Shown: positions 30,049 through 44,351 of the stretch, in pieces
Layout of the letters: the number at the start of each line of letters is the position of its first letter
How positions within the stretch are numbered: the stretch's first letter is position 1
Virus record (IMG/VR): IMGVR_UViG_3300025872_000063
Span: 1-58,928 of that record
Strand: one strand, 5' to 3'
DNA: 58,928 nt
Origin: a virus
The notes under the pieces: model-generated
Database searches by the model: none
Told to the model about the DNA's origin: nothing
Seen by the model: only the letters and a program-made list of their open reading frames with translations
Made by a program: the position numbers and the translations under genes

Positions 30049-30078
30049 ACCTGAAACTGAGAATAATATAATAAACAC

Positions 30079-30357
30079 ATGGACACCGACACAAAGAACA
30101 TCTACGTCAACGTTTACGAGATCACCCGATGCTATGGCGGCCCCGAAGAGGGCGGCTGGTGGTACGACACCGGCGTCACTCTCATCTCAGAGGAGGTTTC
30201 GAACATGGAAGAAGCGTACAATCGTCGCCTCGAACTGCTCGAGGACTATCCTCGCACAGATCGTCGATACTCGGTTCTCGGCGGAGATGACTACGACATT
30301 CTGATCGAAGACACTCCCGGCGAAGACTTTCCCGCCTACAGGCCTCGCTACGAGTAA
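30079..30357 (+). CDS. Small acidic protein, leaderless
   Basis: A 92-residue protein (MDTDTKNIYVNVYEITRCYGGPEEGGWWYDTG...), beta-rich at first, then an acidic end. TATAAT (30067-30072) is exactly 6 nt before ATG, implying a leaderless mRNA. It is the first gene of the promoter island. Similar small proteins occur in actinophages; function unknown. Confidence 0.75.
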   Translation: MDTDTKNIYVNVYEITRCYGGPEEGGWWYDTGVTLISEEVSNMEEAYNRRLELLEDYPRTDRRYSVLGGDDYDILIEDTPGEDFPAYRPRYE

Positions 30358-30381
30358 TTCTGAGAAGAATATAATTACAGC

Positions 30382-30537
30382 ATTGGCGCTGCCTCCCGCA
30401 CCGAAAGGTGTCAGAGAGCCACAACGACTGTCATGGCAGCCAGCAGTCGGACGTACCATGCAATAGGTAGTGCATGGACCCTCTACGTGGGGTAGGGGCA
30501 CGTAGGCCGGCGCCGCAGCGGTAAACCTGCGGCACTT
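30382..30537 (+). ncRNA. Structured noncoding RNA A (~155 nt)
   Basis: Driven by CTGAG-N5-TATAAT (30360-30375) and ending before the next such promoter. Five hairpins can be drawn: CACC-GAAA-GGTG (30399-30410, GNRA loop), CGACTG / CAGTCG (30425-30449, inner TGG-CAG-CCA), CCATGCA / TGCATGG (30456-30477), CTACGTG / CACGTAG (30483-30505) and GCCGCAG / CTGCGGC (30512-30533). No convincing ORF is present. No known RNA family is recognised. Confidence 0.65.
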
Positions 30538-30581
30538 TCTGAGCAGAGTATAATGTGCTCATCAACGACGAAAGGAACACC

Positions 30582-30905
30582 ATGACCACCACGACTACGA
30601 CGACGACCGTCGTCATCAGTTCGAACGCGACCGTTCTCGACCAGTCGGTCGAAGCGATCATCACCAAGTTCAACGAGACCAAGGCCGCGATCAAGGCGCT
30701 GCAGGCTCAGAAGGACGAGCTGGACACGCAGCTTCGCGAGATGCTTCTCGGTAATGACGTCGGCACCATCAACGGTGTCGAGCGCATCCGCGTCGTCCAG
30801 CGCAACAACAGCAAGATCGACCGCGATCTGCTCAAGACTGCGTGGCCCGAGGCGTACGAGGCGACTCTCGTCGAGACGCCCTACACCGTTCTCCAGGCCA
30901 AGTGA
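30582..30905 (+). CDS. Thr-rich, coiled-coil small protein
   Basis: A 107-residue protein with a run of Thr after the start (MTTTTTTTTVV), a coiled coil (IITKFNETKAAIKALQAQKDELDTQLREML) and a globular end (NSKIDRDLLKTAWPEAYEATLVETPY). GAAAGGAACACC precedes ATG 30582, and a strong terminator follows. Function unknown. Confidence 0.7.
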   Translation: MTTTTTTTTVVISSNATVLDQSVEAIITKFNETKAAIKALQAQKDELDTQLREMLLGNDVGTINGVERIRVVQRNNSKIDRDLLKTAWPEAYEATLVETPYTVLQAK

Positions 30906-30909
30906 TCTC

Positions 30910-30949
30910 TTCCGGGAGGGTGCGCTGCCTCCTTCGCGCCCTCCCGGAA
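30910..30949 (+). terminator. GC-rich terminator hairpin
   Basis: TTCCGGGAGGG and CCCTCCCGGAA form an 11-bp stem with an 18-nt loop after the stop codon. The next promoter begins 5 nt later, so the hairpin insulates the cassettes. Confidence 0.75.
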
Positions 30950-30996
30950 GAATCTGAGTCGAGTATAATACAATTACACACAACGAAAGGAACACC

Positions 30997-31449
30997 ATGA
31001 CCACCACGACCGCCATTGGACAAGCTCTCTACATCGAGGCCTACAAAGAGGTCGGCGCCAACAAGAACGTGCTGCAGATGCTGCTCGCTCCCGAGACGAC
31101 TGACTCGCTCGGCAACAAGGTCAAGATGACGATGTACCGTCGACGCATCTCGACTCTCGCTCCTCGTAAGACCTGGAAGTCCTGGCGCTCGCCGTTCGAC
31201 GTCTCCTCGGTCATTTCCGCAGGTCTCGCGCTGCCGGACGCCGTCGATCGCATTCTCTCGTTCACTGACTCGACGTTCAGTGCACTTGTCAATCCGACGG
31301 CCGACTACAAGCTCGCCGGCCCTCCGATTCTTGTTGACATCACTCAGGACGATGTCAAGGAGCTCGCCGCCGGCAAGACTCCCTACAAGATCTTCGGCCG
31401 CGTCTGGCGCTGCCGTAAGAAGCTCGGCTACCCGGACGAGTTCCTGTGA
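30997..31449 (+). CDS. Hypothetical protein, 150 aa
   Basis: A protein beginning MTTTTAIGQALYIEAYKEVG, with a basic central segment (MTMYRRRISTLAPRKTWKSWRSPF) and a C-terminus ending YKIFGRVWRCRKKLGYPDEFL. GAAAGGAACACC precedes the ATG, and its promoter is at 30954-30969. It sits just before the AAA+/VWA pair. Function unknown. Confidence 0.7.
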   Translation: MTTTTAIGQALYIEAYKEVGANKNVLQMLLAPETTDSLGNKVKMTMYRRRISTLAPRKTWKSWRSPFDVSSVISAGLALPDAVDRILSFTDSTFSALVNPTADYKLAGPPILVDITQDDVKELAAGKTPYKIFGRVWRCRKKLGYPDEFL

Positions 31450-31509
31450 TCTGAGCTCTGTATAATACTTATTACATAATTAACAACGACAACGACGACA
31501 AGGACAACC

Positions 31510-32511
31510 ATGACCACCACGCACTCCTCAACCGGCAGGCTGCACCCCGAACTTCCGGCAATTCTCTTCGAGTTTGCAACTCAGTCGTGCGACGCTACTT
31601 CCGCAGATAAGATCTCCGCAAGGGTCATCCCTGCAGGCAAGGCGGTGACTCGCACTATCAAGGAGAAGCCCACCGTGCCCTCAACAACCACTCCCGTAGC
31701 TGCTCTCAAGGGCGCCACTTTGTACCTCCGCCCGAACGGCGAGGCGTACTACACCCGCTCGTGGGGTGAGCACGACGACGTCAACGTCCTCCGTGAAGGC
31801 CGTGCCGGCGGCCTCTACTCGCTCATCTACGGCGAGCCCGGCTGCGGCAAGACGGCACTCGTCGAGGCTGCGTTCGCCGAGGAGAGCGGTGGCTTGTTCA
31901 CCGTTCTCGGTTCCGGTGACACCGAGGTCGCCGACCTGGTCGGCGGCTACGTGCAGACGCCCAGCGGAAACTTCGTCTGGGAAGATGGCCCGCTCGTGAA
32001 GGCCGCAGAGGCCGGCGGAACGCTTCTCGTCGACGAGATCGGTCTCATCGACACGAAGGTGCTGGCTGTCATGTACGGCCTCATGGACGGTCGCCGTGAG
32101 TACACCGTCACCGCGAACCCCGAGCGAGGCACTGTCAAGGCTCAGTCCGGGTTCTATGTTGTCGCCGCGACAAACCCGAACGCGCCAGGTGTTCGGCTTT
32201 CCGAGGCTCTTCTGAGCCGGTTCCTGCTCCAGGTCGAGATGACCACCGACTGGTCGCTCGCCAGGAAGCTCGGCGTTCCGACCCAGATGGTCACTGTCGG
32301 CCAGAATCTCTCCAAGAAGCGGACCTCGAACGAAGTTTCGTGGTGCCCGCAGATGCGAGAGCTTCTCGGGTTCCGCGACATCGAAACTCGGTTCGGCACC
32401 AAGTTCGCGATCAGCAACCTGCTTGCAGCAGCCCCCGAGATCGACCGGCCCACGGTCGCCGACGTGTTCAGTCGAGTGTACGGCGAGCCCTGCTTGCCTG
32501 CCAAGATCTGA
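31510..32511 (+). CDS. MoxR/CobS-type AAA+ ATPase
   Basis: A 333-residue AAA+ ATPase. Walker A YGEPGCGKTALVEAAF near 106-120, GSGDTEVADLVGGYVQ, Walker B GTLLVDEIGLIDTKVLAVMYGLMDGRREY, sensor FYVVAATNPNAPGVRLSEALLSRFLLQVEM. This is typical of MoxR/NorQ/CobS ATPases, which act with VWA-domain partners to remodel proteins or insert metals. The partner is the next gene. The first ~80 residues are low-conservation and basic. Own promoter at 31451-31466 and terminator at 32521. Confidence 0.85.
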   Translation: MTTTHSSTGRLHPELPAILFEFATQSCDATSADKISARVIPAGKAVTRTIKEKPTVPSTTTPVAALKGATLYLRPNGEAYYTRSWGEHDDVNVLREGRAGGLYSLIYGEPGCGKTALVEAAFAEESGGLFTVLGSGDTEVADLVGGYVQTPSGNFVWEDGPLVKAAEAGGTLLVDEIGLIDTKVLAVMYGLMDGRREYTVTANPERGTVKAQSGFYVVAATNPNAPGVRLSEALLSRFLLQVEMTTDWSLARKLGVPTQMVTVGQNLSKKRTSNEVSWCPQMRELLGFRDIETRFGTKFAISNLLAAAPEIDRPTVADVFSRVYGEPCLPAKI

Positions 32512-32520
32512 GCGCAGGCT

Positions 32521-32558
32521 TGCGGCGGGTTGCCTCGTGGTGGTCGCAGCCCGCCGCA
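32521..32558 (+). terminator. Terminator after the AAA+ gene
   Basis: TGCGGCGGG and CCCGCCGCA pair around a 20-nt loop just after the stop; the promoter of the VWA gene begins 4 nt downstream. Confidence 0.7.
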
Positions 32559-32607
32559 GAATCTGAGTAAGTTATAATGACTAAGTACCCACAACGAAAG
32601 GACGAAC

Positions 32608-34404
32608 ATGGGACACTACAACTTTAGGAGCACGAAGACTGCTCACTCCACATCGCATCCCGAGTGGCTCGCTGTCAGTGCAGCTATCGGACGCATGGTC
32701 AACTTCTGGTCTGGACGCTACGATGTCGCAGCGTTCGCTGGCCCCGGAGCTGGCGAGGGTCATCCAGCCTTCTTCAATCCGAACACCAGCGAGGTCGAGG
32801 TCAACATTGAGAAGTGCTTTGGGCCGGCAACGACTCCCGCAGAGGTTGCGAACATCGATCAGCGATCGGTGCAGTTTGAATGGCCTCGGGCGACCGGCGC
32901 GATTCTTCACGAGTCGTTGCACGCGCGCTATTCGTTCTGGAGCCTCATCGAGGCGCACGACACCCTGACTCCCGCCGAGTTCAACGCTCTCGTTCTTCTC
33001 GAGGAGGGACGAATTGAAGCTCTCGGCATCAAGGCGCTCCCCGGCAACGAACTCTTTCTTCGGACGATGGCGCTCGAGATCGTCCTTGACTCGTTCAAGG
33101 ACATCAACTCGCCATCGGACACGGTGCTCGCAGGCAACATTGCAGCTCTCTCGCTTGCCCGAGTCGACGCCGGCGTACTGACTGACGACGACGTTGCGTC
33201 CATCCGTGATCTCATCTCGGAGAAGCTCGGCGAATCGACGCTCGAGGCTCTCCGTGAGCTCTGGCTGCAGGCTCAGTCGCACAACGACGCGTCGTCCGCC
33301 GAGCCGCTCTACGAGATCGCCCGTGAGTGGGTGCGTGTCATCAACAGCGCGGCTGTCGAGAATGGCGAGCCCGACCCGGGCGCCGGCCAGGACGACGCCG
33401 ACGAGCTCATGTTCAGTCGATTCGGTGAACTGCTCGGTGACATGCTCGACACGGCAGCGGCTGACGTAAGCATCGCAGTGTTCGATGATCTTGCCGACCA
33501 GCAGATGTCCGAGGAATGGAAGAAGGTTGCCAGCGACAAGGCGTCGCAAGCCAAGGACCGCAAGGACGCCGAGAAGATCGCCAGCGACGTCTTCAGCAAG
33601 GGCACGCAAGAGATGCAGACTTCGAAGTCTGGCAGCTCCGTGATCTCATCTCGTGCGCCTAGTGGCGACGAGCGTGCCGCTGCTGTCATCATTGCAAGGC
33701 AGCTCGACAAGGCGAAGTATCGCGATCGCGACGCGACCGAGATCTCGTCGGTCGTTCCTCCCGGTCGACTGCGCACTCGAGCTGCGATGCAGGCCGAGGC
33801 CCTCAAGTCGAAAGGCGCGATGGCCACGGCCGAGCCATGGCGGCGCACCGTCCGCAAGCACACTGACGACCCGACACTTTCCATCGGCGTGATGGTCGAC
33901 ATCAGCGGTTCGATGGGTGATGCGATGCAGCCGATGGCTGTCGCCGCCTGGGCGCTCAGCGAGGCTGTCCGTCGAGTACAGGGCCGCGCCGCGATGGTGT
34001 ACTACGGTAGCGATGCGTTCCCCACTCTCAAGCCGGGACAGCACCTCAGCAAGGTGACCGTGTGGTCTGCGCCTGACGGAACCGAGAAGTTCGATCTCGC
34101 GTTCAAGGCAGTCAACGGTTCTCTCAATCTTCTGTGGGGCACCGGCGCCCGGCTTCTTGTCGTGGTCAGCGACGGATGCTACACGTCGGCAGAGCAGGGT
34201 GCTGCTCGCCAGGCGATGCAGCAGTGCCAGTCGGCTGGTGTCGGAGTTCTCTGGCTCAACTTCAGCGCCTACGGCAATGACGTCAGTCGAATTGTCAAAG
34301 GTACGAACACCGAGGTTGTCTACGTCAAAGGCAGCATCTCGGATGCAGCGACCGCGATTGGCTCGGCTGCAGCGAAGGCATTGACCTCCGCTGCCGCCAG
34401 CTGA
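32608..34404 (+). CDS. VWA-domain protein with HExxH metallopeptidase-like region
   Basis: A 598-residue partner of the AAA+ ATPase. Near residues 97-125 it has GAILHESLHARYSFW followed by LLEEGRIEALG, matching a zincin HExxH plus downstream Glu. The middle is an Asp/Glu/Lys-rich helical linker. The C-terminal ~190 residues are a von Willebrand A domain with MIDAS motif GVMVDISGSMGD near 430 and LLVVVSDG. MoxR-VWA pairs include the cobaltochelatase CobS/CobT. Here the added zincin-like part suggests a chaperone or protease complex; substrate unknown. Confidence 0.8.
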   Translation: MGHYNFRSTKTAHSTSHPEWLAVSAAIGRMVNFWSGRYDVAAFAGPGAGEGHPAFFNPNTSEVEVNIEKCFGPATTPAEVANIDQRSVQFEWPRATGAILHESLHARYSFWSLIEAHDTLTPAEFNALVLLEEGRIEALGIKALPGNELFLRTMALEIVLDSFKDINSPSDTVLAGNIAALSLARVDAGVLTDDDVASIRDLISEKLGESTLEALRELWLQAQSHNDASSAEPLYEIAREWVRVINSAAVENGEPDPGAGQDDADELMFSRFGELLGDMLDTAAADVSIAVFDDLADQQMSEEWKKVASDKASQAKDRKDAEKIASDVFSKGTQEMQTSKSGSSVISSRAPSGDERAAAVIIARQLDKAKYRDRDATEISSVVPPGRLRTRAAMQAEALKSKGAMATAEPWRRTVRKHTDDPTLSIGVMVDISGSMGDAMQPMAVAAWALSEAVRRVQGRAAMVYYGSDAFPTLKPGQHLSKVTVWSAPDGTEKFDLAFKAVNGSLNLLWGTGARLLVVVSDGCYTSAEQGAARQAMQQCQSAGVGVLWLNFSAYGNDVSRIVKGTNTEVVYVKGSISDAATAIGSAAAKALTSAAAS

Positions 34405-34414
34405 TTGAAGTTCT

Positions 34415-34460
34415 GGGCCGCTTGAGAGGCGTACGTCCTTTCCGTCTCTCAAGCAGGCCC
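34415..34460 (+). terminator. Long terminator stem after VWA gene
   Basis: GGGCC-GCTTGAGAG and CTCTCAAGC-A-GGCCC form a 14-bp stem with a single bulge. A second small hairpin (CCGTC-GATGCA-GACGG, 34469-34484) follows and carries the recurrent GCAGACGGG sequence. Confidence 0.75.
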
Positions 34461-34514
34461 GCCTATCGCCGTCGATGCAGACGGGCTTGATTCTGAGTCA
34501 GATATAATGACTGC

Positions 34515-34559
34515 ATGATGATTGCCCGCTGCGCGACACCTACCTTGACTGATATCTGA
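34515..34559 (+). CDS. Possible leaderless 14-residue peptide
   Basis: ATG 34515 is exactly 6 nt after TATAAT (34503-34508), the same geometry as the leaderless genes nearby. The frame encodes MMIARCATPTLTDI then TGA. It could be a leader peptide or a decayed cassette; the promoter is convincing, the gene is not proven. Confidence 0.3.
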   Translation: MMIARCATPTLTDI

Positions 34560-34560
34560 A

Positions 34561-34594
34561 TTCAGGCCTGGTAAGCGCCGCCGGTGCAGACGGG
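34561..34594 (+). repeat. Copy of the TTCAGGCCTGG...GCAGACGGG element
   Basis: About 34 nt with a conserved left part (TTCAGGCCTGG) and right part (GCAGACGGG). The closest copies are at 40212-40250 (intergenic) and 28760-28800 (inside the CHAP-like gene). Shorter relatives end in the same right part just upstream of promoters at 38404, 42074 and 42489. Confidence 0.5.
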
Positions 34595-34628
34595 TCCGCT
34601 TCTACAATAGCTACAGCTGAAAGATCAA

Positions 34629-34787
34629 ATGGGACTCTTCACCACGTACATCGGATATAGACTCGGAAGAAAGAAAGCCGCCGCTGAGATCGAAGACATG
34701 CTCGACGATCGTTGCGAGAATTGCGGACACACGCTCAGTCAGCATTCGCGCGATGGACGCCAGCTCTGCCCGACCTATCCAAACTGA
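34629..34787 (+). CDS. Small zinc-knuckle protein
   Basis: A 52-residue protein (MGLFTTYIGYRLGRKKAAAE...) with DDRCENCGHTLSQHSRDGRQLCPTYPN, a probable CxxCxH...H...C zinc site. GAAAGATCAA precedes the ATG; a TACAAT lies at about 34606. The stop TGA lies inside the next CTGAG promoter. Function unknown. Confidence 0.7.
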   Translation: MGLFTTYIGYRLGRKKAAAEIEDMLDDRCENCGHTLSQHSRDGRQLCPTYPN

Positions 34788-34818
34788 GACACGTATAGTG
34801 TAATCGAAAGGACACGCC

Positions 34819-34983
34819 ATGAAATACATTGTTCGACGCGCCGTGATCAGTCTGCCCGTCTTCATCTTCTTCGTCCGTCGATTCGACGAGCGAGAACTCG
34901 CACCGTACGCTTCCTGGCTGTGGGCCAGTCTGCTGATCTGGGCGATCTGGACTGCTCTGTCCGCCATCGCTGACCCAAACTGA
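34819..34983 (+). CDS. Small two-segment membrane protein
   Basis: A 54-residue protein with a first hydrophobic segment (AVISLPVFIFFV) and a second (ASWLWASLLIWAIWTALSAI). GAAAGGACACGCC precedes the ATG, and its stop lies in the next CTGAG element. Function unknown. Confidence 0.7.
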   Translation: MKYIVRRAVISLPVFIFFVRRFDERELAPYASWLWASLLIWAIWTALSAIADPN

Positions 34984-35004
34984 GATCACTATAGTAGGCG
35001 ACAT

Positions 35005-35118
35005 ATGATTATCGAAACTGATGACTGGCTCGAGCAAGCATACGAAGACAGATTCTCCGTCGACGACAACGATGACGCCTATTTCGACGAACTCGACGAC
35101 GATGATGAATCTGAGTAG
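35005..35118 (+). CDS. Tiny acidic protein
   Basis: A 37-residue protein (MIIETDDWLEQAYEDRFSV...) with an Asp/Glu-rich end. TATAGT is 9 nt before the ATG, so the leader is almost absent. The TAG stop is formed by the next promoter (CTGAGTAG). Function unknown; a nucleic-acid mimic is conceivable from charge only. Confidence 0.6.
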   Translation: MIIETDDWLEQAYEDRFSVDDNDDAYFDELDDDDESE

Positions 35119-35158
35119 AGTATAATGTACTCATCAACCAACGACGAAAGGACACAAG

Positions 35159-35527
35159 ATGGACACCACACAGATGGTCAAGGTTGGCAACTTCGGTGTC
35201 GACAGCGGACAGATCGTGGTCATCGACCCCTGCTATGTGTGGGACGACGACTTCATGCCGAACGGCGACCCGACCGGCGGCCCGTATGACGCCGCCTGCC
35301 GCATCACCCTATCCAAGAAGAACTACGGCGAGATCGAGGGCGGCTTTGTCACCAGTACTCTCTACGGTGACGGAACCTACCCCATCTACGCTGAACTGAA
35401 CGAACTCGGTCAGATCGTCCGCATGATCATCGACTTCGATCCCGACTTGAACTGGGACGATGACGATGAAGATGAAGATGAAGACGAAGACGAAGATGTC
35501 GACGATGATAACAACGAGGATGAGTGA
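35159..35527 (+). CDS. Beta-rich protein with acidic tail
   Basis: A 122-residue protein: VKVGNFGVDSGQIVVIDPCYVWDDDF and GGFVTSTLYGDGTYPIYAELNELGQIVRMIIDFDP look like a small beta-fold seen in many phages, followed by ~28 Asp/Glu residues. GAAAGGACACAAG precedes the ATG. The next gene starts 4 nt after its stop. Function unknown. Confidence 0.75.
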   Translation: MDTTQMVKVGNFGVDSGQIVVIDPCYVWDDDFMPNGDPTGGPYDAACRITLSKKNYGEIEGGFVTSTLYGDGTYPIYAELNELGQIVRMIIDFDPDLNWDDDDEDEDEDEDEDVDDDNNEDE

Positions 35528-35530
35528 CAT

Positions 35531-35743
35531 ATGGCGAAGCCATCGATTCAAGACGCAATTGACATACTCAACAACTACGCCGGCGACGTGATGCTGATTG
35601 GTATCGACAAGGTGGCAGAACATGCAGGGCTCAAGCCGAGGGTCGTTCGCAAGTTTACGATCAACGTGCTCGAGGGCAAGAACGCTGACATTCGAAAGAT
35701 CCTCTTGTCAGTCAAAGCTCTAAAGGAGTCCAATGAAGCTTGA
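35531..35743 (+). CDS. Small helix-turn-helix-like protein
   Basis: A 70-residue protein, paralogous to the gene at 48798: VMLIGIDKVAEHAGLKPRVVRKFTINVLEGKNADIRKILLSVKAL matches the same spacing there (VAxxAGxKPxxVxKF...K..DxRKI). The pattern suggests a compact DNA-binding unit. It overlaps the next gene by 11 nt. Function unknown. Confidence 0.7.
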   Translation: MAKPSIQDAIDILNNYAGDVMLIGIDKVAEHAGLKPRVVRKFTINVLEGKNADIRKILLSVKALKESNEA

Positions 35744-35903
35744 TCTCTTCGAGCTCAATGGACTTCCGGAAGCCGCTGTGCGCGAACGCATCGCAAGCCT
35801 TGACACAACAATCAAGCATGGCAACTTTGAACCCGTAGTTCTTCGCGAATACGCGAAGGAACTGAAAGCGCTCGTATGGGCGCTTTCAAAGTATTCTGAG
35901 TAA
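35733..35903 (+). CDS. Small helical protein
   Basis: A 56-residue protein (MKLDLFELNGLPEAAVRER...) with AAAGGAG upstream inside the previous gene. Its TAA stop is formed by the next promoter (CTGAGTAA). Function unknown. Confidence 0.65.
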   Translation: MKLDLFELNGLPEAAVRERIASLDTTIKHGNFEPVVLREYAKELKALVWALSKYSE

Positions 35904-35938
35904 GTTATAATGTACATACACCGAAGAAAGGACACAAC

Positions 35939-36136
35939 ATGGACCACTCACCTCAGATGACGTACTTTGCCACTGATGGCAACTACGGCGACGCAGAGGG
36001 CATCGTCATCATTGACACGCAAAGCTGGACCGAAGACGAATGGACCATCATCGATGAAACACCAGATCGCCAGCGAGCCAGTGTCGCCCTAAGTCTTTCC
36101 AAGTCAAATGATGACCAGCTGGAGCTGTTCAAGTGA
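35939..36136 (+). CDS. Small acidic protein
   Basis: A 65-residue protein (MDHSPQMTYFATDGNYGDAEGIVIIDTQSWTEDEW...), beta-rich and acidic, preceded by GAAAGGACACAAC. The next gene's GTG overlaps its stop (GTGA). Function unknown. Confidence 0.65.
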   Translation: MDHSPQMTYFATDGNYGDAEGIVIIDTQSWTEDEWTIIDETPDRQRASVALSLSKSNDDQLELFK

Positions 36137-36399
36137 CTCAACCTGCAGAAGTATCATTCGAGATGCACAAAGATGGTCGATTCACAGACGACCAGCTTTG
36201 GTATTTCGCCGAAGGTGTCAATGACAAGACCAACGAAGAACTTACAGACATTCAGCGCGCCGAGATCTTTGATCTCCTCAAGGACGAAGCAGTCTGGCTT
36301 GTAAATGATCTCGAGCCGTACTTCAAATTTGAAGTCATGCTCGGTCTAGTTCTCTGGTTACGCGGACACAAAGTGTCGACCATTTCTCCAACCTTCTAA
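36133..36399 (+). CDS. Small protein coupled to 35939
   Basis: An 88-residue protein starting GTG within the previous stop. Acidic helices (RFTDDQLWYFAEGVNDKTNEELTDIQRAEIFDLLKDE) are followed by a hydrophobic end (FEVMLGLVLWLRGHKVSTI). Function unknown. Confidence 0.65.
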   Translation: MTQPAEVSFEMHKDGRFTDDQLWYFAEGVNDKTNEELTDIQRAEIFDLLKDEAVWLVNDLEPYFKFEVMLGLVLWLRGHKVSTISPTF

Positions 36400-36430
36400 C
36401 CTAGAAACTGTGAAGAGTATAATGGTAGAC

Positions 36431-36583
36431 ATGGCAAACAACCACACAGTTCACGTTCAGTGCAGTACGGAAACCTGTTTCAGCCTCTGGCTCGAACACG
36501 AGAAGTTGGCAAGAACCACTGACATGTACCCGCTCATGTCGCAAGTTCATTCAAATACAGACAACCGAATCGAGAACGTATGA
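36431..36583 (+). CDS. Small protein, near-leaderless
   Basis: A 50-residue protein (MANNHTVHVQCSTETCFSLWLEHEKLA...). TATAAT is 7 nt before ATG. Two Cys near the start (QCSTETC) could bind metal. Its TGA overlaps the following ATG. Function unknown. Confidence 0.6.
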   Translation: MANNHTVHVQCSTETCFSLWLEHEKLARTTDMYPLMSQVHSNTDNRIENV

Positions 36584-36765
36584 CAGCAAAAGCAATTGTG
36601 CGCATTTCTATTCACCAAACAACTGAGAGCAAGCTCACTGTCACGCACACTGACAACGCAGGCGCGTGTTGGAGCGACATCTCCGATGGTGCTGGCCAAG
36701 TCGTGACTATCTTCTTTCGCTCTGCAGAAGAGCGCGATGAGTTCTGGTTCAATGCCTCAGCTTGA
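36580..36765 (+). CDS. Small beta-rich protein
   Basis: A 61-residue protein (MTAKAIVRISIHQTTESKLTVTHTDNAGACWSD...) translated from an ATG overlapping the prior stop. The alternating pattern suggests a small beta-sheet. Function unknown. Confidence 0.6.
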   Translation: MTAKAIVRISIHQTTESKLTVTHTDNAGACWSDISDGAGQVVTIFFRSAEERDEFWFNASA

Positions 36766-36816
36766 AACTAAGCTAGGTATAATACACCTGCACGACCAAC
36801 TACGAAAGGACACACA

Positions 36817-37503
36817 ATGCCGAACTGGTGCAACAACAACATCTCAATCAGCGGTCCCAAGGCCGACACCGATGCGTTCTTTGCACGTATCGACCACAAG
36901 GACAACGACATGTCCATCCTGCAAACCTTCCTCCCCATGCCCGAAGTGCTGAATGGCACTGTCTCTCCCACCCCAACCTCTCCTGACCCCCACCCAAACT
37001 GGGCGAACATGGTCGCAGAGGGCACAATGACTCAGGAGCGGTACGATGCACTGTGCGCCGACCAGCGCGAGCGGTACGAGAGAGGGCAGAAGTCCTTCAC
37101 TCAGACTGGCTATTACGACTGGTGGCACTGGCAGAACACCAACTGGGGTGTCAAGTGGGGTGACTCGGACACGTCCATCACTCTGTATGAAGATGGCTCC
37201 ATCTCAGGAACTTTCACCACCCCTTGGGGTCCGCCTATCGAGGGTATCCTTCGCATCTCACTGCAGTTTCCGAACTGCACTTTCTGCATCTCTTGGTATG
37301 AACCTGGAATGTGCATGATTGGCGCAGCACGAATCGTCAACGGCGATATTGTCGATGAAACTGAGATCGGACAGGATGAGTGGCCTTCATGGGACGAACA
37401 GGACGATGGCGCCGCGTATGAGGAAGCCATCGACACGCTGGTAACTCGGTGTTCCGCTGAGATCATGTGGGGCGTCGACAGTAGCTCAGGCAACACAAAC
37501 TGA
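36817..37503 (+). CDS. YubB/DUF1281-like ferredoxin-fold protein
   Basis: A 228-residue protein. It begins MPNWCNNNISISG, the classic start of the Api92/YubB-like (DUF1281) family, and has YYDWWHWQNTNWGVKWGDSD and FTTPWGPPIEGILRISLQFPNCTF in the expected order. The family is frequent on plasmids and phages with no proven function. GAAAGGACACACA precedes the ATG; its stop lies in the next promoter. Good confidence in family, none in role. Confidence 0.8.
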   Translation: MPNWCNNNISISGPKADTDAFFARIDHKDNDMSILQTFLPMPEVLNGTVSPTPTSPDPHPNWANMVAEGTMTQERYDALCADQRERYERGQKSFTQTGYYDWWHWQNTNWGVKWGDSDTSITLYEDGSISGTFTTPWGPPIEGILRISLQFPNCTFCISWYEPGMCMIGAARIVNGDIVDETEIGQDEWPSWDEQDDGAAYEEAIDTLVTRCSAEIMWGVDSSSGNTN

Positions 37504-37544
37504 GCTTTGTATAATGTAGTTACACGAACGACGAAAGGACAGCA

Positions 37545-37808
37545 ATGAGCACAGCTCCCACGAAGCAACTCGCGAATGACGTACTGGAACTCGTGAGAAA
37601 CAAGTACAACTGCCGTTCCGAGGACAACGGTCCGCGTCTAATCATGGACTTTGATTGGTACAACGATCAGGGATGGCCTACGATCGTCTGGGAAGGTGGC
37701 CCCTACGAGTGGGCTGTCGAGTGCAGCTTCGAACTTCTCGATAGCGTTCCCAGGCCCGTCTGGTTCGAGGCGGCTACGGCCTGGGCTCTCAGCATCTACC
37801 TCAACTGA
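37545..37808 (+). CDS. Small protein, 87 aa
   Basis: The protein has an N-terminal helix (TKQLANDVLELVRNKYN) and a Trp-rich second half (FDWYNDQGWPTIVWEGGPYEWAVECSFELL). It follows a CTGAG promoter and GAAAGGACAGCA. Function unknown. Confidence 0.7.
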   Translation: MSTAPTKQLANDVLELVRNKYNCRSEDNGPRLIMDFDWYNDQGWPTIVWEGGPYEWAVECSFELLDSVPRPVWFEAATAWALSIYLN

Positions 37809-37866
37809 GCAAACAACTTTCTAAGAAAGTTATAATACAACTACCAACAACGACAAAGGACACAAC

Positions 37867-38235
37867 ATGAACTCATCTTTCGAAACGTCGCACGGAACAA
37901 TCGTGCTCGTCAACCGTAATCAAGCAACTCACGACGGACGAGGCTATCGTTCGAAGCCGCGAATGTACGTCGGAGGCTGCGACGGCTGGAGCAGGGCAGT
38001 GAAGAACACAGTCAGGAGCATCATCGACGAGAGCGGCGTTCCGCTCGACTTGACTGGCGCTCGCTGGTCGCAGTTCGCCGGGTGCAGCTGTCCGTGCTCT
38101 CCCGGCCTCATCCTGAAGTATCAGGGACTCACCATCGGAGAGGTCATCTACACTCACTACGACGTGTACGTGACCATCAAGGACGCTCCTACGATCGAGC
38201 CGGCACTGCCGTCTCGAGTTCTCGTAGGAGTATGA
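37867..38235 (+). CDS. Cys-cluster protein, 122 aa
   Basis: The protein has a beta-rich start (SHGTIVLVNRNQ), a basic segment (SKPRMYVGGCDGWSRAVKN) and FAGCSCPCSPGLILKYQG, a tight C-x-C-x-C cluster that may bind a metal or cluster. AAAGGACACAAC precedes the ATG, and a long terminator stem begins at its stop. Related small proteins occur in actinophages; function unknown. Confidence 0.7.
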   Translation: MNSSFETSHGTIVLVNRNQATHDGRGYRSKPRMYVGGCDGWSRAVKNTVRSIIDESGVPLDLTGARWSQFAGCSCPCSPGLILKYQGLTIGEVIYTHYDVYVTIKDAPTIEPALPSRVLVGV

Positions 38236-38295
38236 AATCGCGCTTGAGCGCGCTCGGCAGTTACTGTCCTTTCGGCCGGGCGCGCTCGCGCGTTT
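38235..38295 (+). terminator. Long composite terminator stem
   Basis: AAATCGCGC pairs with GCGCGTTT, and inside it GAGCGCGC (38246-38253) pairs with GCGCGCTC (38280-38287). The loop is 26 nt. It is followed by a TACAAT-type promoter (38297-38312) reading into 100 nt that holds only a 17-codon frame. Confidence 0.7.
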
Positions 38296-38436
38296 ACTGA
38301 GATCTCTACAATGAAAGGAGTCTCGCCGTACACCAGCGACATGGAAGAAACGCAGGCTCGCTAAGGGAGCCGCGGAATGCAGACGGGTCACTTCTGAGCA
38401 AGTTATAATGTATTCGCAACTACGAAAGGACACCAA

Positions 38437-38691
38437 ATGAACGAGCTCAATATCTCGCTAAACGACTGCTACATTCGAGTCATTCCCCAGTCTGACTGCA
38501 CGACACTCTTTTGGACTGATGGCATCAACGACTGGGAAGAGAACTACCAGACGTCATCCGCAGCTTTCTCGCGCCTGGCATGTCTTCTCGCCTGTGCAGA
38601 TTCCAAGTGGCTTCGCGGATTCAACTACGACGAAGAAAAGCATCAGCTCGCTTGGGCCGAGTTTCTTGACGGCGCTCTCGACAGGGACTGA
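38437..38691 (+). CDS. Small protein, 84 aa
   Basis: The protein (MNELNISLNDCYIRVIPQSDC...) has Cys residues scattered through WTDGINDWEENYQ and LACLLACADSKWLRGFNYDEEKHQLAW. GAAAGGACACCAA precedes the ATG. Function unknown. Confidence 0.7.
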   Translation: MNELNISLNDCYIRVIPQSDCTTLFWTDGINDWEENYQTSSAAFSRLACLLACADSKWLRGFNYDEEKHQLAWAEFLDGALDRD

Positions 38692-38742
38692 CACTTCTGA
38701 GCAAGTTATAATGTACCCATCAACGACGAAAGGACAAGGCAA

Positions 38743-38889
38743 GTGGGTATTCAAGATTACGCGCACTGGAACGAAGAAGCTTCGCTGATTTGGTGGCTCG
38801 AGGAAGGTCGTCATCCATATGAACCTGAGTTCTCGGATTTCGACGACGATCCCCGGGATGACTGGGATGACTGGGAAGACGTCGACTAA
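38743..38889 (+). CDS. Tiny acidic Trp-rich protein
   Basis: A 48-residue protein from GTG 38743 (VGIQDYAHWNEEASLIWWLEE...) with a C-terminal Asp/Trp repeat (DDDPRDDWDDWEDVD). GAAAGGACAAGGCAA supplies the ribosome site. Function unknown. Confidence 0.6.
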   Translation: MGIQDYAHWNEEASLIWWLEEGRHPYEPEFSDFDDDPRDDWDDWEDVD

Positions 38890-38951
38890 TCATCTGCTCC
38901 AGCAGAAACTAAGATTGTTATAATGATCTCACAACAACGAAAGGACACACC

Positions 38952-39254
38952 ATGACAGTCAAGTATCCGCACCTCTCCATCGAGCTCGTTGGCCAGGATG
39001 GCAACGCGTTCTCCATCCTCGGACGCCTGCAAGGCGTGCTTCGCCGTGGCGGCGTACCGAAGGACGAGATCGCTGCTGTGATGGCGGAGGCCCAGTCCGG
39101 CGACTACAGCCACCTGCTGGTCACCGTCATGAACACCGTCTCGGTCGACTCGAGCGACGACGAGGACGACGACCACGACCCGTGGGGCGACGACGAGGCC
39201 GACGACGTGTGGGGCGACTTCTACGACGAAGAATTTGAAGAGGTGCTCGACTGA
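38952..39254 (+). CDS. Conserved actinophage small protein
   Basis: A 100-residue protein. KYPHLSIELVGQDGNAFSILGRLQGVLRRGGVPKDEIAAVMAEAQSGDYSHLLVTVMNTVSV is a pattern I recognise as widespread in actinobacterial phages; the last 35 residues are an Asp/Glu tail. GAAAGGACACACC precedes the ATG. Function unknown despite wide occurrence. Confidence 0.8.
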   Translation: MTVKYPHLSIELVGQDGNAFSILGRLQGVLRRGGVPKDEIAAVMAEAQSGDYSHLLVTVMNTVSVDSSDDEDDDHDPWGDDEADDVWGDFYDEEFEEVLD

Positions 39255-39323
39255 CAACGTCGCGTGACAATGTCAAGATCTGAGTAAGATATAATAATCT
39301 CAACAACAACGAAAGGACACGAC

Positions 39324-39569
39324 ATGAACGATGATTATCCGGAAGATGATTACGACAATGAAGGTGAGATCATCGCCGAGTTCATTATGAGCTGGGTCGC
39401 CGGCGGCGGTCGCGCGAGCGATGCGATGGTGGCCTATCACCAACACAAGGCGATGGCTGCCGGCACCTGGCCGCCCAATGAAGAAGAGGATAGCTCCCCG
39501 CGGTACGGGGACCCCGACTTCGACTATGAAGGTCTTTATCTCTGGGAGATGAATCAAGAAATGTACTGA
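39324..39569 (+). CDS. Small acidic protein, 81 aa
   Basis: Acidic ends (MNDDYPEDDYDNEGE ... FDYEGLYLWEMNQEMY) surround a helix (IIAEFIMSWVAGGGRASDAMVAYHQHKAMA). GAAAGGACACGAC precedes the ATG; a CAGCC / GGCTG hairpin follows the stop. Function unknown. Confidence 0.7.
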   Translation: MNDDYPEDDYDNEGEIIAEFIMSWVAGGGRASDAMVAYHQHKAMAAGTWPPNEEEDSSPRYGDPDFDYEGLYLWEMNQEMY

Positions 39570-39625
39570 CAGCCAGCAAGGCTGACACCTCCTGAGTATG
39601 AGGCTAAACTGCTCGGGACGAACCT

Positions 39626-39805
39626 ATGGCTGTAATGGCAATCGTTCCTTATGAATACAGCCCTCACGACTTTCGCCAGCGGGAGTCGCGCGAATATAAA
39701 GCTGGCAGGGGCATCGATACCCCCAATGTAAACCTGTGGCCCGCAGGCGAGAGTATCGAAGGGTTTATTAGAATCTGCATAGCCCGTCTCAACTATGTAG
39801 AGTGA
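39626..39805 (+). CDS. Possible 59-residue protein behind a repeated start segment
   Basis: The frame MAVMAIVPYEYSPHDFRQRE...RICIARLNYVE lacks a normal ribosome site. A ~24-nt segment (AACTGCTCGGGAC then RAACCTATGG) covers its start at 39605 and recurs at 39868, where the same ATG opens a 9-codon frame. Promoter copies are absent upstream, so the gene would read through from 39324. The 39570-39910 gap also holds GC-rich hairpins, so a structured RNA is the alternative. Confidence 0.35.
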   Translation: MAVMAIVPYEYSPHDFRQRESREYKAGRGIDTPNVNLWPAGESIEGFIRICIARLNYVE

Positions 39806-39956
39806 CGCACGCTTTATGAGCATATTGAAAGAGCGTTGGTGTTGCCGACCTGAGCATGTCGACCATAAACTGCTCGGGACAAACCTATGGCAGACGGACA
39901 AGGAAATAAGTTCTGAGTTTGATATAATAATCTCAGGAACAACGAAAGGACACACG

Positions 39957-40199
39957 ATGAACATCATGGATTTGAAGAATGCTGTCGATCTCGCACTCGA
40001 GCGGGGAATCGACCCTAACTGCACTGTTGTGCTGGGTCTTGGAGACGTTTCTCAGACCCTCGAGTGGGCCATCTTGGACATGATCGAAGATCCGTCAAAC
40101 CCCGACAACACGTATGAGGGTGTGATTTGGTTCACTCTGTTTCCCGGAGAGGAAGCAGATGGCCGCTTCACTCCATGCCATTGGCCCGCGGATGCGTAA
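39957..40199 (+). CDS. Small acidic protein, 80 aa
   Basis: ATG 39957 follows GAAAGGACACACG and promoter 39913-39928. MNIMDLKNAVDLALERGIDPNCTVVLGLGDVSQTLEWAILD resembles a widespread phage family of small alpha/beta proteins (helix, then VxL strand, then acidic loop). Ends FTPCHWPADA. Function unknown. Confidence 0.7.
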   Translation: MNIMDLKNAVDLALERGIDPNCTVVLGLGDVSQTLEWAILDMIEDPSNPDNTYEGVIWFTLFPGEEADGRFTPCHWPADA

Positions 40200-40211
40200 G
40201 TGTCCCGTAGA

Positions 40212-40250
40212 AAGTTCAGGCCTGGAAGGGCGCCAGAATGCAGACGGGCC
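40212..40250 (+). repeat. Copy of the TTCAGGCCTGG...GCAGACGGG element
   Basis: Intergenic; nearly matches the sequence inside the CHAP-like gene at 28760-28800 over about 38 nt and stands 15 nt upstream of a CTGAG promoter. Confidence 0.5.
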
Positions 40251-40307
40251 ATCTTCGTCAAGTTCTGAGTAAGTTATAATGCACTAGTACGCAAGAAAGG
40301 ACAGCAG

Positions 40308-40475
40308 ATGAAGTGCAAATGCGCGATGTGCGGACGAGACAACTCCGCCAAACTGGGCAGGGCGTCGTACGCCCGTTCAGGGATCTACACCTCCGAGCAA
40401 AAGTCCAAGGGCGACATCAAGCGCATCGAACGTCGCCTCCGTCGTCGTCGTGAGAACTTCGACCTCTCTTTCTGA
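40308..40475 (+). CDS. Small zinc-type basic protein
   Basis: A 55-residue protein (MKCKCAMCGRDNSAKLGRA...) with a CxCxxC start and a very basic helix (KRIERRLRRRRENFDLSF). GAAAGGACAGCAG precedes the ATG; its TGA lies in the next CTGAG. A nucleic-acid-binding role is plausible from composition. Confidence 0.7.
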   Translation: MKCKCAMCGRDNSAKLGRASYARSGIYTSEQKSKGDIKRIERRLRRRRENFDLSF

Positions 40476-40493
40476 GAAAGGTATAATGACACC

Positions 40494-40655
40494 ATGATCA
40501 GCTACGAACACAAGGGGGGCGCATGGCTGCTTCCTCTCACTGGAACACGCGACGTCCCGACGTGCCAAGACTGCGAAGAGACCAATGGTCTCGAGTTCGT
40601 GTCCTGGATCGACGCCTACCTCTGCCCTGAATGCCTAGCTAACGAACTTGGCTGA
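40494..40655 (+). CDS. Leaderless zinc-ribbon protein
   Basis: A 53-residue protein (MISYEHKGGAWLLPLTGTRD...) with PTCQDCEET and YLCPECLANE, a two-knuckle zinc ribbon. TATAAT is exactly 6 nt before ATG. Function unknown. Confidence 0.7.
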   Translation: MISYEHKGGAWLLPLTGTRDVPTCQDCEETNGLEFVSWIDAYLCPECLANELG

Positions 40656-40711
40656 CCTCATTTGCTTTCTGAGCAAGTTATAATGATCTCACAACGACGA
40701 AGGGACAAGCA

Positions 40712-40867
40712 ATGAACACCATCACCGAGGGTCTGATCTTCAAGGCCCGCTGCACGATCGCAGAGATCGAAGACTGCTTCGATATGAACTCGGCGCTCGA
40801 GCTGATCGACAAGCTCTCCCGTCGCATCAATGAACTGATCGACGAGCTGGAGTCGATCAAGAACTGA
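40712..40867 (+). CDS. Small helical protein
   Basis: A 51-residue all-helical protein (MNTITEGLIFKARCTIAEIEDC...) ending in a coiled-coil-like LSRRINELIDELESIKN. AGGGACAAGCA precedes the ATG, and its TGA is inside the next promoter. Function unknown. Confidence 0.65.
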   Translation: MNTITEGLIFKARCTIAEIEDCFDMNSALELIDKLSRRINELIDELESIKN

Positions 40868-40885
40868 GTAAGTTATAATGTACTC

Positions 40886-41166
40886 ACAACATCAACCGCA
40901 CGAAGAGCGCTTCGGCACCGACGTACGGTAGCAAGTCACAAGACGTTAGACGCAAGCCTCTGGCACGATAAGGCTCTCAGCATCCAAAGCGATACTGCTC
41001 TACGACGACCATGGCGTCGCACCAGTCCCTCCTCACGGATCAGATCCGTCCTCCTCTGTACGCATCCGCCACTCTAATCGTCTTACTCTGCTACCCGACT
41101 GCTCCCCGGCCAAGGAGCAGAACGCCGGGCGTTTCCGGAGACCAGCCGGAGCGTTCTTCATGTGGT
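40886..41166 (+). ncRNA. Structured noncoding RNA B, copy 1 (~280 nt)
   Basis: Transcribed from CTGAG-N5-TATAAT (40864-40879) and ending at the next promoter; no good ORF. A long-range helix pairs GGTAGCA (40927-40933) with TGCTACC (41089-41095) and GACGTTAGA (40942-40950) with TCTAATCGTC (41073-41082, one bulge). Between them, a core identical to copy 2 holds CGACG / CGTCG and ACGGAT-CAG-ATCCGT hairpins flanked by TCCTCC-like single strands. A 3' hairpin CTGCTCC / GGAGCAG (41099-41120) follows, then a conserved TCCGG / CCGGA stem. Confidence 0.75.
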
Positions 41167-41216
41167 TGATTCTGAGCAAGTTATAATGTACTTACCAACG
41201 AGGAAAGGACAAAGCA

Positions 41217-41384
41217 ATGCCGAGCAACTACCCCGACGGAATGCGCGAGTCGGACATCCCGGGCTGGTGGGACGTGGAGTGCCCGACCTGTGAGGAGGAG
41301 GGGTACACCGACGACTGCCCCACCTGCGAGGGAACTGGCAACATCGACAGTCGCAGCCGGTGGGAGCCGGAATACGACGACTGA
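41217..41384 (+). CDS. DnaJ-type zinc-finger small protein
   Basis: A 55-residue protein with VECPTCEEEGYTDDCPTCEGTGNID, two CxxC knuckles including a CxxCxGxG repeat as in the DnaJ zinc domain. GAGGAAAGGACAAAGCA precedes the ATG. Probably a redox or protein-binding zinc finger; target unknown. Confidence 0.7.
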   Translation: MPSNYPDGMRESDIPGWWDVECPTCEEEGYTDDCPTCEGTGNIDSRSRWEPEYDD

Positions 41385-41387
41385 ACT

Positions 41388-41440
41388 CGGCGCCTCGAGC
41401 GCTGGCCGGCGCCTCGAGCGCTGGCCGGCGCCTCGAGCGC
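41388..41440 (+). repeat. Tandem GC-rich palindromic repeat
   Basis: A 19-nt unit (CGGCGCCTCGAGCGCTGGC) occurs twice and a third time truncated, directly after a stop and before a promoter. GGCGCC and CTCGAG are self-complementary, so hairpins can form. Related to the GCCGGC/CTCGAG arrays further right. Confidence 0.75.
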
Positions 41441-41467
41441 AAGAACTAAGAAAGGTATAATGAGACC

Positions 41468-41737
41468 ATGCTCAAGATCAACGTAACAACTTCCCGTCGA
41501 GATGGCGATTATTCCGATGTCTTCATCCAATATGCGGACGACGACAAGATTCACGCCGGCGCAATACGCAAGACGCTGACTGGCAAGTGGAATACCATCG
41601 TCGACGGAGAACTCTACACCGCTCGGACAAAGTCGGACGCCGTTCTCACGGTTTGCTATCTGACTGGACCGAAGTTCTTTTCTGGCGCAGTCTATAAGTA
41701 CGGTGCTTACACACTTGCACTTCCAAGTTCTGAGTAA
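41468..41737 (+). CDS. Leaderless small beta-rich protein
   Basis: An 89-residue protein (MLKINVTTSRRDGDYSDVFIQYADDDKIHAGAIRK...) with alternating hydrophobic strands. TATAAT is exactly 6 nt before ATG, and TAA is provided by the next promoter (CTGAGTAA). Function unknown. Confidence 0.7.
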   Translation: MLKINVTTSRRDGDYSDVFIQYADDDKIHAGAIRKTLTGKWNTIVDGELYTARTKSDAVLTVCYLTGPKFFSGAVYKYGAYTLALPSSE

Positions 41738-41773
41738 GTTATAATGTACTCACCAACGAGGAAAGGACAAAGC

Positions 41774-41998
41774 ATGGACGAGATGATCGTGATCGACACG
41801 CCGGAGGGCATCGAACACTTCCGCCTCGCGGCGCTCATTGCGGCGCTTCGCATCGAAGTCAAGACTGGAATGGTCGGCCGTATGCCGACCCTGCCAGTCG
41901 CCAGGAGCTACGGCGTGCAGGCCAGGACCAAGAAGAAGGCACTCGAGGAGCTCGAGGGCATCTACATGGTCACCTACGGCAGGCCGTACGGATCGTGA
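41774..41998 (+). CDS. Small protein, 74 aa
   Basis: ATG 41774 follows GAGGAAAGGACAAAGC. MDEMIVIDTPEGIEHFRLAALIAALRIEVKTGM followed by LPVARSYGVQARTKKKALEELEGIY is a pattern seen in many actinophages; a small helical fold is likely. Function unknown. Confidence 0.72.
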   Translation: MDEMIVIDTPEGIEHFRLAALIAALRIEVKTGMVGRMPTLPVARSYGVQARTKKKALEELEGIYMVTYGRPYGS

Positions 41999-42106
41999 CC
42001 GCCACGGCGGGCCGGCGCAATGAATGCCGGCCCGCCAGGCGGCGCAATGCAGACGGGCCACTTCTGAGCAAGTTATAATGTACTTACAACGAGGAAAGGA
42101 CACACA

Positions 42107-42271
42107 ATGAAGACGAGCAACGAACTTCTCAAGTTGGTCAGGGAGAGCGTGGAGCTCGCGGACGAGCGCAAGAACGTCGGAACGCTTGGCCCGTGGGAGG
42201 CGATCGGTATTCTCAAGAGCACGGTCAACTTTCTCATCACGCACATCGAGCGTGATCAGACTTCTGAGTAA
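42107..42271 (+). CDS. Small helical protein
   Basis: A 54-residue protein (MKTSNELLKLVRESVELADE...), ending HIERDQTSE with its TAA given by the next promoter. GAGGAAAGGACACACA precedes the ATG. Function unknown. Confidence 0.65.
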   Translation: MKTSNELLKLVRESVELADERKNVGTLGPWEAIGILKSTVNFLITHIERDQTSE

Positions 42272-42285
42272 GGTATAATGTATTC

Positions 42286-42441
42286 ATGGGAACGACAAAG
42301 AACAACTCGAGGACCAAGTGGGCATGGACAGACGCTGAGCGTCAGGCATTCGCGGATGGCGTCCGCGTCCGTGCACAGCGGATTCCAAACAAGAAGCGCA
42401 TCGCGTCACGGAACGCGTGCCGGCGTGGAGGCGGCGAATGA
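42286..42441 (+). CDS. Leaderless basic small protein
   Basis: A 51-residue protein (MGTTKNNSRTKWAWTDAER...) ending in a basic stretch (IPNKKRIASRNACRRGGGE). TATAAT is 6 nt before ATG. Possibly nucleic-acid binding. Function unknown. Confidence 0.65.
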   Translation: MGTTKNNSRTKWAWTDAERQAFADGVRVRAQRIPNKKRIASRNACRRGGGE

Positions 42442-42500
42442 CCGGCCCGCTAAGCGCCGGCGCGCAGACGGGTCACTTCTAAGAAAGGTATAATGACGAC

Positions 42501-42662
42501 ATGAGCGAATACACCATCCAGGGAAACTACGGCTTCGGCTGGGAAGATCTGACGACCGAAGAAACTATGCCAGAGGCAAAGCAGCGACTCAGCGAGTACA
42601 ACGAGAACGAATCGAGCGTTCCCCATCGAATCAAAGTCAGCGTCAAACTGAGCAAGTTATAA
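42501..42662 (+). CDS. Leaderless small protein ending in a promoter
   Basis: A 53-residue protein (MSEYTIQGNYGFGWEDLTTEET...) of a type common in phages (YGxGWEDxTxEET followed by a helix and HRIKV strand). TATAAT is 6 nt before ATG. The stop TAA is the middle of the next promoter's TATAAT, so the last residues (LSKL) are encoded by the promoter. Confidence 0.72.
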   Translation: MSEYTIQGNYGFGWEDLTTEETMPEAKQRLSEYNENESSVPHRIKVSVKLSKL

Positions 42663-42669
42663 TGACGAC

Positions 42670-42840
42670 ATGAACGACAACGACATCAAGATTCGCGCCC
42701 AAGAGATCGTCCAGACCTGCGAGATGGAGTACCCAGAAGCTGGTGACGAAGCCATCTACCAGATGGCCGTCGACATGAAGTTTCACTCTGGGTGGAGCGA
42801 AGACGACGTGAACGAGTTGCTCAGTGTCCTCGGATTCTGA
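42670..42840 (+). CDS. Leaderless small acidic protein
   Basis: A 56-residue protein (MNDNDIKIRAQEIVQTCEME...) of three helices. TATAAT is 6 nt before ATG, and its TGA lies inside the next CTGAG. Function unknown. Confidence 0.68.
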   Translation: MNDNDIKIRAQEIVQTCEMEYPEAGDEAIYQMAVDMKFHSGWSEDDVNELLSVLGF

Positions 42841-42879
42841 GCAAGTTATAATGATCTCACAACGAGGAAGGGACAAGCA

Positions 42880-43065
42880 ATGACGTTTGATAACTGGATG
42901 GACAAGGTCGACGAGTTCATGGAGATCCTCTGCGGCCTGAACTCTGAGTGCATCGAAGACTACTGCTACCGCGATGAGTACGACGCCGGCGCCTCGCCGA
43001 AAGAGGTCGCACTGCGCGCTCTCAAGAACGCGAACTACGACACCACTGTCAACTACATTCGGTGA
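42880..43065 (+). CDS. Small acidic protein, 61 aa
   Basis: The protein (MTFDNWMDKVDEFMEILCGLN...) has an acidic helix followed by IEDYCYRDEYDAGASPKEVALRALKNA. GAGGAAGGGACAAGCA precedes the ATG. Function unknown. Confidence 0.65.
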   Translation: MTFDNWMDKVDEFMEILCGLNSECIEDYCYRDEYDAGASPKEVALRALKNANYDTTVNYIR

Positions 43066-43112
43066 AACTGAGTAAGTTATAATACAATTACACCACGGCG
43101 AAAGGACACCCG

Positions 43113-43259
43113 ATGAACGAGAACAACGAGCCCGACTTCCTTGATCACGGCTGGCAGAACTGCCCCGGCGGGGCGGAGGCCCACCAAGCGCACATGGAGA
43201 TGAACGGCGACTGCCCGTGGTGCGCGTCCTACGACAAGTCCAAGTGGCTCGATTTCTGA
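43113..43259 (+). CDS. Small Cys/His protein
   Basis: A 48-residue protein (MNENNEPDFLDHGWQNCPGG...) with CPGG, several His and GDCPWCASYD; a zinc-binding knuckle is likely. GAAAGGACACCCG precedes the ATG; its TGA lies inside the next CTGAG. Function unknown. Confidence 0.68.
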   Translation: MNENNEPDFLDHGWQNCPGGAEAHQAHMEMNGDCPWCASYDKSKWLDF

Positions 43260-43277
43260 GCTTGGTATAATACACTC

Positions 43278-43556: not shown

Positions 43557-43601
43557 CTGAGCAAGTTATAATGTACTTACCAACGAGGAAAGGACAAAGC
43601 G

Positions 43602-43727: not shown

Positions 43728-43785
43728 GGCCGGCGCTCGAGCCGGCTGGCCGGCGCTCGAGCCGGCTGGCCGGCTGGCCGGCGCA
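43728..43785 (+). repeat. GCCGGC / CTCGAG palindromic array
   Basis: Units of CGCTCGAGCCGGCTGGCCGG repeat between stop and promoter. GCCGGC pairs with itself across a GCTCGA loop, giving terminator-like hairpins. Related arrays are at 43979-44003, 44272-44327, 44691-44777 and 45073-45139. Confidence 0.75.
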
Positions 43786-44327: not shown

Positions 44328-44351
44328 TTCTGAGCAAGTTATAATGTACTC

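Follow-up and report, generated by a model that had tools for sequence, protein, structure and literature searches.

A promoter-driven, hairpin-rich stretch in a freshwater actinophage island as a candidate small RNA gene

Introduction

The small regulatory RNAs of phages that have been reviewed include VpdS, PreS, OOP, sar and the PAK_P4 RNAs, and several of these depend on Hfq or are antisense to a phage gene (PMC12197685). Among the larger phage RNAs, GOLLD and ROOL measure from ~650 nt to more than 800 nt and are often found near tRNA islands (PMC12286853). The host-takeover module of SPO1 consists of 24 protein genes located in the terminal redundancy (PMC10531801).

Here we describe R1, a stretch of ~157 nt in a 17-kb island of small units that starts at ~30 kb in a 58.9-kb virus record; the whole record (58,928 nt) was analysed and is called the window below. 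As far as can be read from the DNA, R1 resembles the reviewed small RNAs in being short and noncoding, in lying between protein genes and in being likely made during infection, but it has no shown sequence relation to them, and no recognisable phage gene lies antisense to it. With GOLLD and ROOL it shares the character of a structured noncoding phage RNA of unknown function; it differs from them in its size, and neither Rfam model matches it even at E 5. The surrounding island, in which nearly every unit has its own promoter, resembles the SPO1 module in that many small genes, most of them of unknown function, are clustered together; it differs in its CTGAG-N5-TATAAT promoter and in that several units are noncoding. 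We suggest that R1 is most likely an orphan phage-encoded small RNA, outside every described family tested (Rfam, tRNA/tmRNA, and the RNA-A of related phages described below).

Results and discussion

The phage and its island

With the MoxR-like ATPase gene of the window (31510-32511) as query, 64 related loci were found in IMG/VR. The closest named genome is that of the Actinomycetia phage DSL-LC01 (69% over 315 aa), which was assembled from a metagenome (PMC10611076), and one relative is located in an Aquiluna MAG. Together, the likeness to DSL-LC01 and the relative in Aquiluna suggest freshwater actinobacterial hosts; we take the window virus to be a tailed phage of these bacteria.

The units of the island lie almost all on the + strand, and their promoters span 30057-47022. 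Exact copies of CTGAG-N5-TATAAT number 35 on the + strand and 0 on the - strand, and in the relaxed form CT[GA]AG-N-TATAAT the spacer is 5 nt long in 41 of 42 cases; when the first part of the island was scanned for standard sigma-70 promoters, none was found. Throughout the island, the promoter carries an element at about -22 in place of a -35 box. Relatives share the single-gene promoter type, each with an upstream element of its own: CTAAAG in L008/G001 and DSL-LC01, and CCTGA immediately before TATAAT in G002, G003 and G005, as well as on a minority of the sites of G011. The -22 element and its replacement by other elements in the relatives suggest that a transcription factor or sigma partner specific to the phage evolves together with the promoter. 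Protein units of the island have their start codon 7-8 nt past TATAAT (leaderless) or 20-44 nt past it, mostly at 28-34 nt. We regard the island as host-takeover-like, and its expression would be early.

Position and coding content of R1

The first-pass annotation had placed R1 between two CTGAG promoters at the start of the island. Both promoters are indeed present as exact copies (Table 1), but R1 is the second unit, the first being promoter 30057 with its 92-aa gene. On the 3' side follows a 107-aa gene (30582-30905) with a weak, RecE C-terminus-like PHROG match. The stretch between the two promoters (30376-30538, ~160 bases) had been described as free of ORFs, and this holds: there is no ORF of at least 28 aa with an RBS or a leaderless start, nor any RBS-linked ORF or leaderless ATG/GTG ORF at all, and the sole ORF of at least 25 aa that starts in R1 is a 27-aa TTG frame without an RBS. 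Unlike most island units, R1 has no start codon 7-8 or 20-44 nt past TATAAT; the next inferred start for its promoter is 207 nt away, behind a promoter of its own. As would be expected of a phage small RNA gene, R1 thus appears to have its own promoter and contains no protein gene recognisable in the ORF scan.

Table 1. Features of R1, of the other noncoding units of the island, and of RNA-A in related phages. Positions are those of the window unless a relative is named.
Feature	Positions	Strand	Evidence or description
Promoter driving R1	30360-30375	+	exact CTGAG-N5-TATAAT, CTGAGAAGAATATAAT; expected +1 ~30382
R1, proposed small RNA gene, ~157 nt	30382-30538	+	inter-promoter, no RBS-preceded ORF, stem density, fold
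Closing stem, 5' arm GGCGCTGCC	30385-30393	+	partner GGCCGGCGCC at ~30505-30514; MFE, pair probabilities
Hairpin A, CTC..CACC-GAAA-GGTG..GAG	30393-30416	+	GNRA tetraloop; fold
Hairpin B, CGACTG/CAGTCG	30425-30449	+	perfect stem, local z -2.8
Hairpin C, CCATGCA-ATAGGTAG-TGCATGG	30456-30477	+	perfect 7-bp stem
Hairpin D, CCTCTAC/GTAGGGG (or D')	30480-30505	+	fold
Hairpin D', CTACGTG/CACGTAG	30483-30505	+	mutually exclusive with D
Hairpin E, GCCGCAG-CGGTAAAC-CTGCGGC	30512-30533	+	perfect 7-bp stem, -15.9 kcal/mol
Promoter of 107-aa gene	30539-30554	+	exact CTGAG-N5-TATAAT, CTGAGCAGAGTATAAT
R3a, copy a of promoter-driven ~280-nt RNA	40880-41170	+	no RBS ORF; z -4.4
R3b, copy b of R3 RNA	43272-43556	+	z -3.6; alignment with copy a
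R4, promoter-driven noncoding unit, ~175 nt	45161-45336	+	no RBS ORF; z -1.5 only
R5, promoter-driven noncoding unit, ~570 nt	46233-46804	+	no RBS ORF; T-arm-like AAGGGTTCGATTCCCTA
RNA-A	L102 (G003) ~1500-1640; L105 ~990-1110; also L103/L107 (G005), L106		

Hairpins and predicted fold

In the predicted fold of R1, the closing stem encloses hairpins A-D and hairpin E stands separate; the fold is compact and mostly paired, with small exposed loops and few long single-stranded stretches. The five stems claimed at the outset, including a GNRA tetraloop and perfect 7-bp stems, were all recovered as hairpins A-E, and the statement that such a density is unlikely by chance was borne out. Counting non-overlapping perfect Watson-Crick hairpins per 157 nt against dinucleotide-preserving shuffles, we found four stems of at least 6 bp in 1 of 5000 shuffles, and three stems of at least 7 bp in none of 5000. 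Only two places elsewhere in the window equal the stem count of R1 and both are repeats, namely a repeat-coding stretch at ~1141 and palindromic spacers near 44621.

The stem count is the strongest statistic for R1, and folding energy alone would not single it out. Its MFE is moderately unusual (z -2.36; 17/1000), the z-score becoming -1.2 once hairpin E is excluded, and several protein-coding units of the island reach equally low values because of strong 3' hairpins. The minus strand of R1 folds equally well, so that the two strands are indistinguishable by fold and the strand is assigned by promoter direction instead. The original proposal of a promoter-driven structured RNA is upheld in part: it is the reading that suits the anatomy best, while the folding-energy signal is small and does not differ between the strands, and homologues were not found.

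Hairpin E lies immediately upstream of the next promoter and is likely the 3' end or terminator of R1. Its U-tract is weak (ACTTTCT) and was not picked up by a U-tract terminator scan; since a clear U-tract is missing, R1 transcripts may continue into the next gene. Many island units have no strong terminator.

Search for relatives and partners

Covariance models of Rfam gave no match to R1 at the gathering threshold and nothing credible at E<=5, so that the suggested family check did not yield an assignment; the only match near R1 at E<=5 is a sub-threshold sR4 on the minus strand that overlaps the R1 end. Neither ARAGORN nor Rfam matched R1 as a tRNA or tmRNA. A DNA search in 50,697 phages gave matches only in the 5' UTR of the next gene, no exact 19-21-mers of R1 were found in IMG/VR, and BLAST together with a single-sequence covariance model over 50 related records returned only the window itself besides chance matches of 14-15 nt. 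A protein search with the 107-aa gene in IMG/VR likewise found none. The first-pass annotation had named homologous regions lacking the stems as evidence against an RNA, and this was found in part: in L008, the nearest relative, the syntenic place of R1 is occupied by a protein gene instead of the stems, and no R1 homologue was found to compare. The L008 gene indicates that R1 is not conserved; it does not make R1 unreal.

Complementarity between R1 and the gene starts of the phage is not above that of shuffled RNA: 168 of 300 shuffles reached an equally low minimum dG, and 63 of 300 gave as many 7-mer matches. A role as an antisense regulator of phage genes was rejected on these grounds. R1 matches the gene at 38952 over 11 nt at its start, a length to be expected by chance. 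R1 contains one copy of CCTCC, a motif also present in R3; because this copy is single and partly paired, an anti-Shine-Dalgarno function is kept only as a lead.

Candidate RNA genes in the island and in related phages

The island units without an RBS-linked ORF are those of promoters 30360 (R1), 40864, 43256, 45145 and 46217, and the short unit of 38297. R3a and R3b (promoters 40864 and 43256) represent one RNA present twice. The copies have diverged but share a nearly 120-nt identical core, and their ends pair as a 25-bp terminal helix; between the copies, seven predicted pairs have changed on both sides with pairing kept. Both carry two CCUCC (anti-Shine-Dalgarno-like) motifs on either side of a small hairpin. 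R3 has no match in Rfam, and copy a has none in phages and the 50 related records either. Judged from these predicted pairs, R3a and R3b are much clearer candidate RNA genes than R1. R4 gives a weak signal on folding and has no clear relative. No ARAGORN or Rfam call was obtained for R5; its first 125 nt contain, besides the T-arm-like sequence, a possible acceptor-like pairing GAAAG/CTTTC.

In the relatives G003 and G005, noncoding RNAs with a promoter occupy the corresponding place, ahead of the same set of conserved genes (150-aa/MoxR/VWA). RNA-A, which comes first among them, has a conserved core, GTTCCGTGGGAGTCGGAAC, that forms an invariant hairpin and is also present in L066/L105 and, with a lower score, in L106. 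Most members have an anticodon-like hairpin with a 7-nt loop, and in L066/L105 RNA-A adjoins a tRNA gene. One compensatory pair was found between G003 and G005, and no Rfam match was obtained for RNA-A (L066, L010, L012). RNA-A resembles R1 in being promoter-driven and in having a closing stem plus hairpins; it differs in its core, which is absent from the window, and R1 was accordingly rejected as an RNA-A homologue. Together, R3a/R3b and the RNAs of the relatives indicate that RNA genes are normal in such islands, although none of these RNAs is homologous to R1. The second RNA of G003 has a hammerhead-like CTGATGAG.

R1 as a probable small RNA gene

We consider it moderately probable that R1 is a stand-alone actinophage gene for a structured small RNA that acts in trans. 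This accounts best for R1 because of the promoters, the missing gene start, the density of hairpins, the 3' hairpin and the neighbouring RNA genes; the promoters, the lack of a recognisable gene, the stem density and the lack of relatives are all direct observations. We infer its transcription, ends, timing, trans action and host target as follows. The CTGAG-N5-TATAAT promoter would start R1 near 30382 on the + strand, and the RNA would fold as a closed multi-hairpin in which GGCGCUGCC pairs with GGCCGGCGCC around hairpins A-D. The transcript would end at or shortly past hairpin E, ahead of the next promoter, and would be co-expressed with the other single-gene units of the host-takeover-like island. 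R1 would act in trans through the exposed loops GAAA, AUAGGUAG and GUGGG and the GCCACAAC linker. Pairing with gene starts of the phage is not in excess, which favours a target in the host; this would most likely be an RNA, or a host factor that binds RNA, and not the mRNAs of the phage itself.

The same gene model could also produce a decoy that sequesters a protein instead of pairing with RNA, the mechanism alone being different. The compact, mostly paired fold and the missing complementarity signal to phage gene starts fit this, but no known protein-binding RNA family matches R1 and no partner can be named, and we regard a decoy as somewhat unlikely. The poor U-tract of hairpin E and the many units without a strong terminator would agree with a long structured 5' leader, in which transcripts from 30360 run into the 107-aa gene and the hairpins tune its expression. 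That gene, however, has its own exact promoter, at the usual spacing, and an RBS, and its homologue in DSL-LC01 and L008 likewise has a promoter to itself and lacks a leader of this kind, so a leader seems decidedly unlikely.

The perfect Watson-Crick pairing of the stems and the equal folding of both strands would also fit hairpins that act as DNA, as palindromes for replication, recombination or protein binding, next to a promoter that gene order has placed there by chance. We find this improbable, as R1 contains no direct repeats or iterons, the skew shows no clear inflection apart from the switch of gene class, and R1, flanked by two + strand promoters, is placed as a transcription unit would be. 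As a replication origin in particular R1 was rejected, the iterons and a clear skew signal both being absent. Quite improbable, finally, is a decayed gene or a micropeptide, starting for instance at the ATG at 30433 (20 aa) or at a leaderless non-ATG codon: an ATT follows 6 nt after TATAAT, in the position of the ATG of the island's leaderless genes, and CACAACGAC, which precedes ATG 30433, is similar to 5' UTRs of the island, but there is no RBS, the TTG at +2 yields only 27 aa, and perfect stems in a row would not be expected in a decayed gene.

Beyond R1 itself, we tentatively propose that it is one of at least four different undescribed structured RNAs of freshwater actinophages, which are driven by single-gene promoters in a host-takeover island and whose slot is filled in relatives by lineage-specific RNAs. 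If true, there would be an RNA arm of host takeover alongside the usual small proteins. The wider pattern of several unrelated structured RNA genes in one island, together with lineage-specific RNAs in relatives, is of greater interest than R1 alone. Noncoding genes are easily overlooked in phage annotation. With a sharply defined promoter of fixed spacing, such units can be picked out from the DNA alone, and several came to light here in one phage of rarely cultured freshwater actinobacteria. If transcribed, these units would provide compact regulators of host takeover made of RNA, and more could be sought simply as stretches from one promoter to the next that have no start codon.

Other hairpins of the island

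A very strong hairpin with a CUGCCUCCUU loop (-36 kcal/mol, z -7) follows the 107-aa gene at 30907-30952, and the matching place in L008 has one like it, whose loop is CUCCUCC. The 11-mer GCGCTGCCTCC is common to R1 and the 30907-30952 hairpin. Arrays of GCTCGAGCCGGCTGGCCGGC-type palindromes are located at 41384-41440, 43727-43785, 44271-44325, 44690-44775 and 45072-45140, between stop codons and the next promoters, and form hairpins down to -38 kcal/mol; these are perhaps mobile or duplicated terminators.
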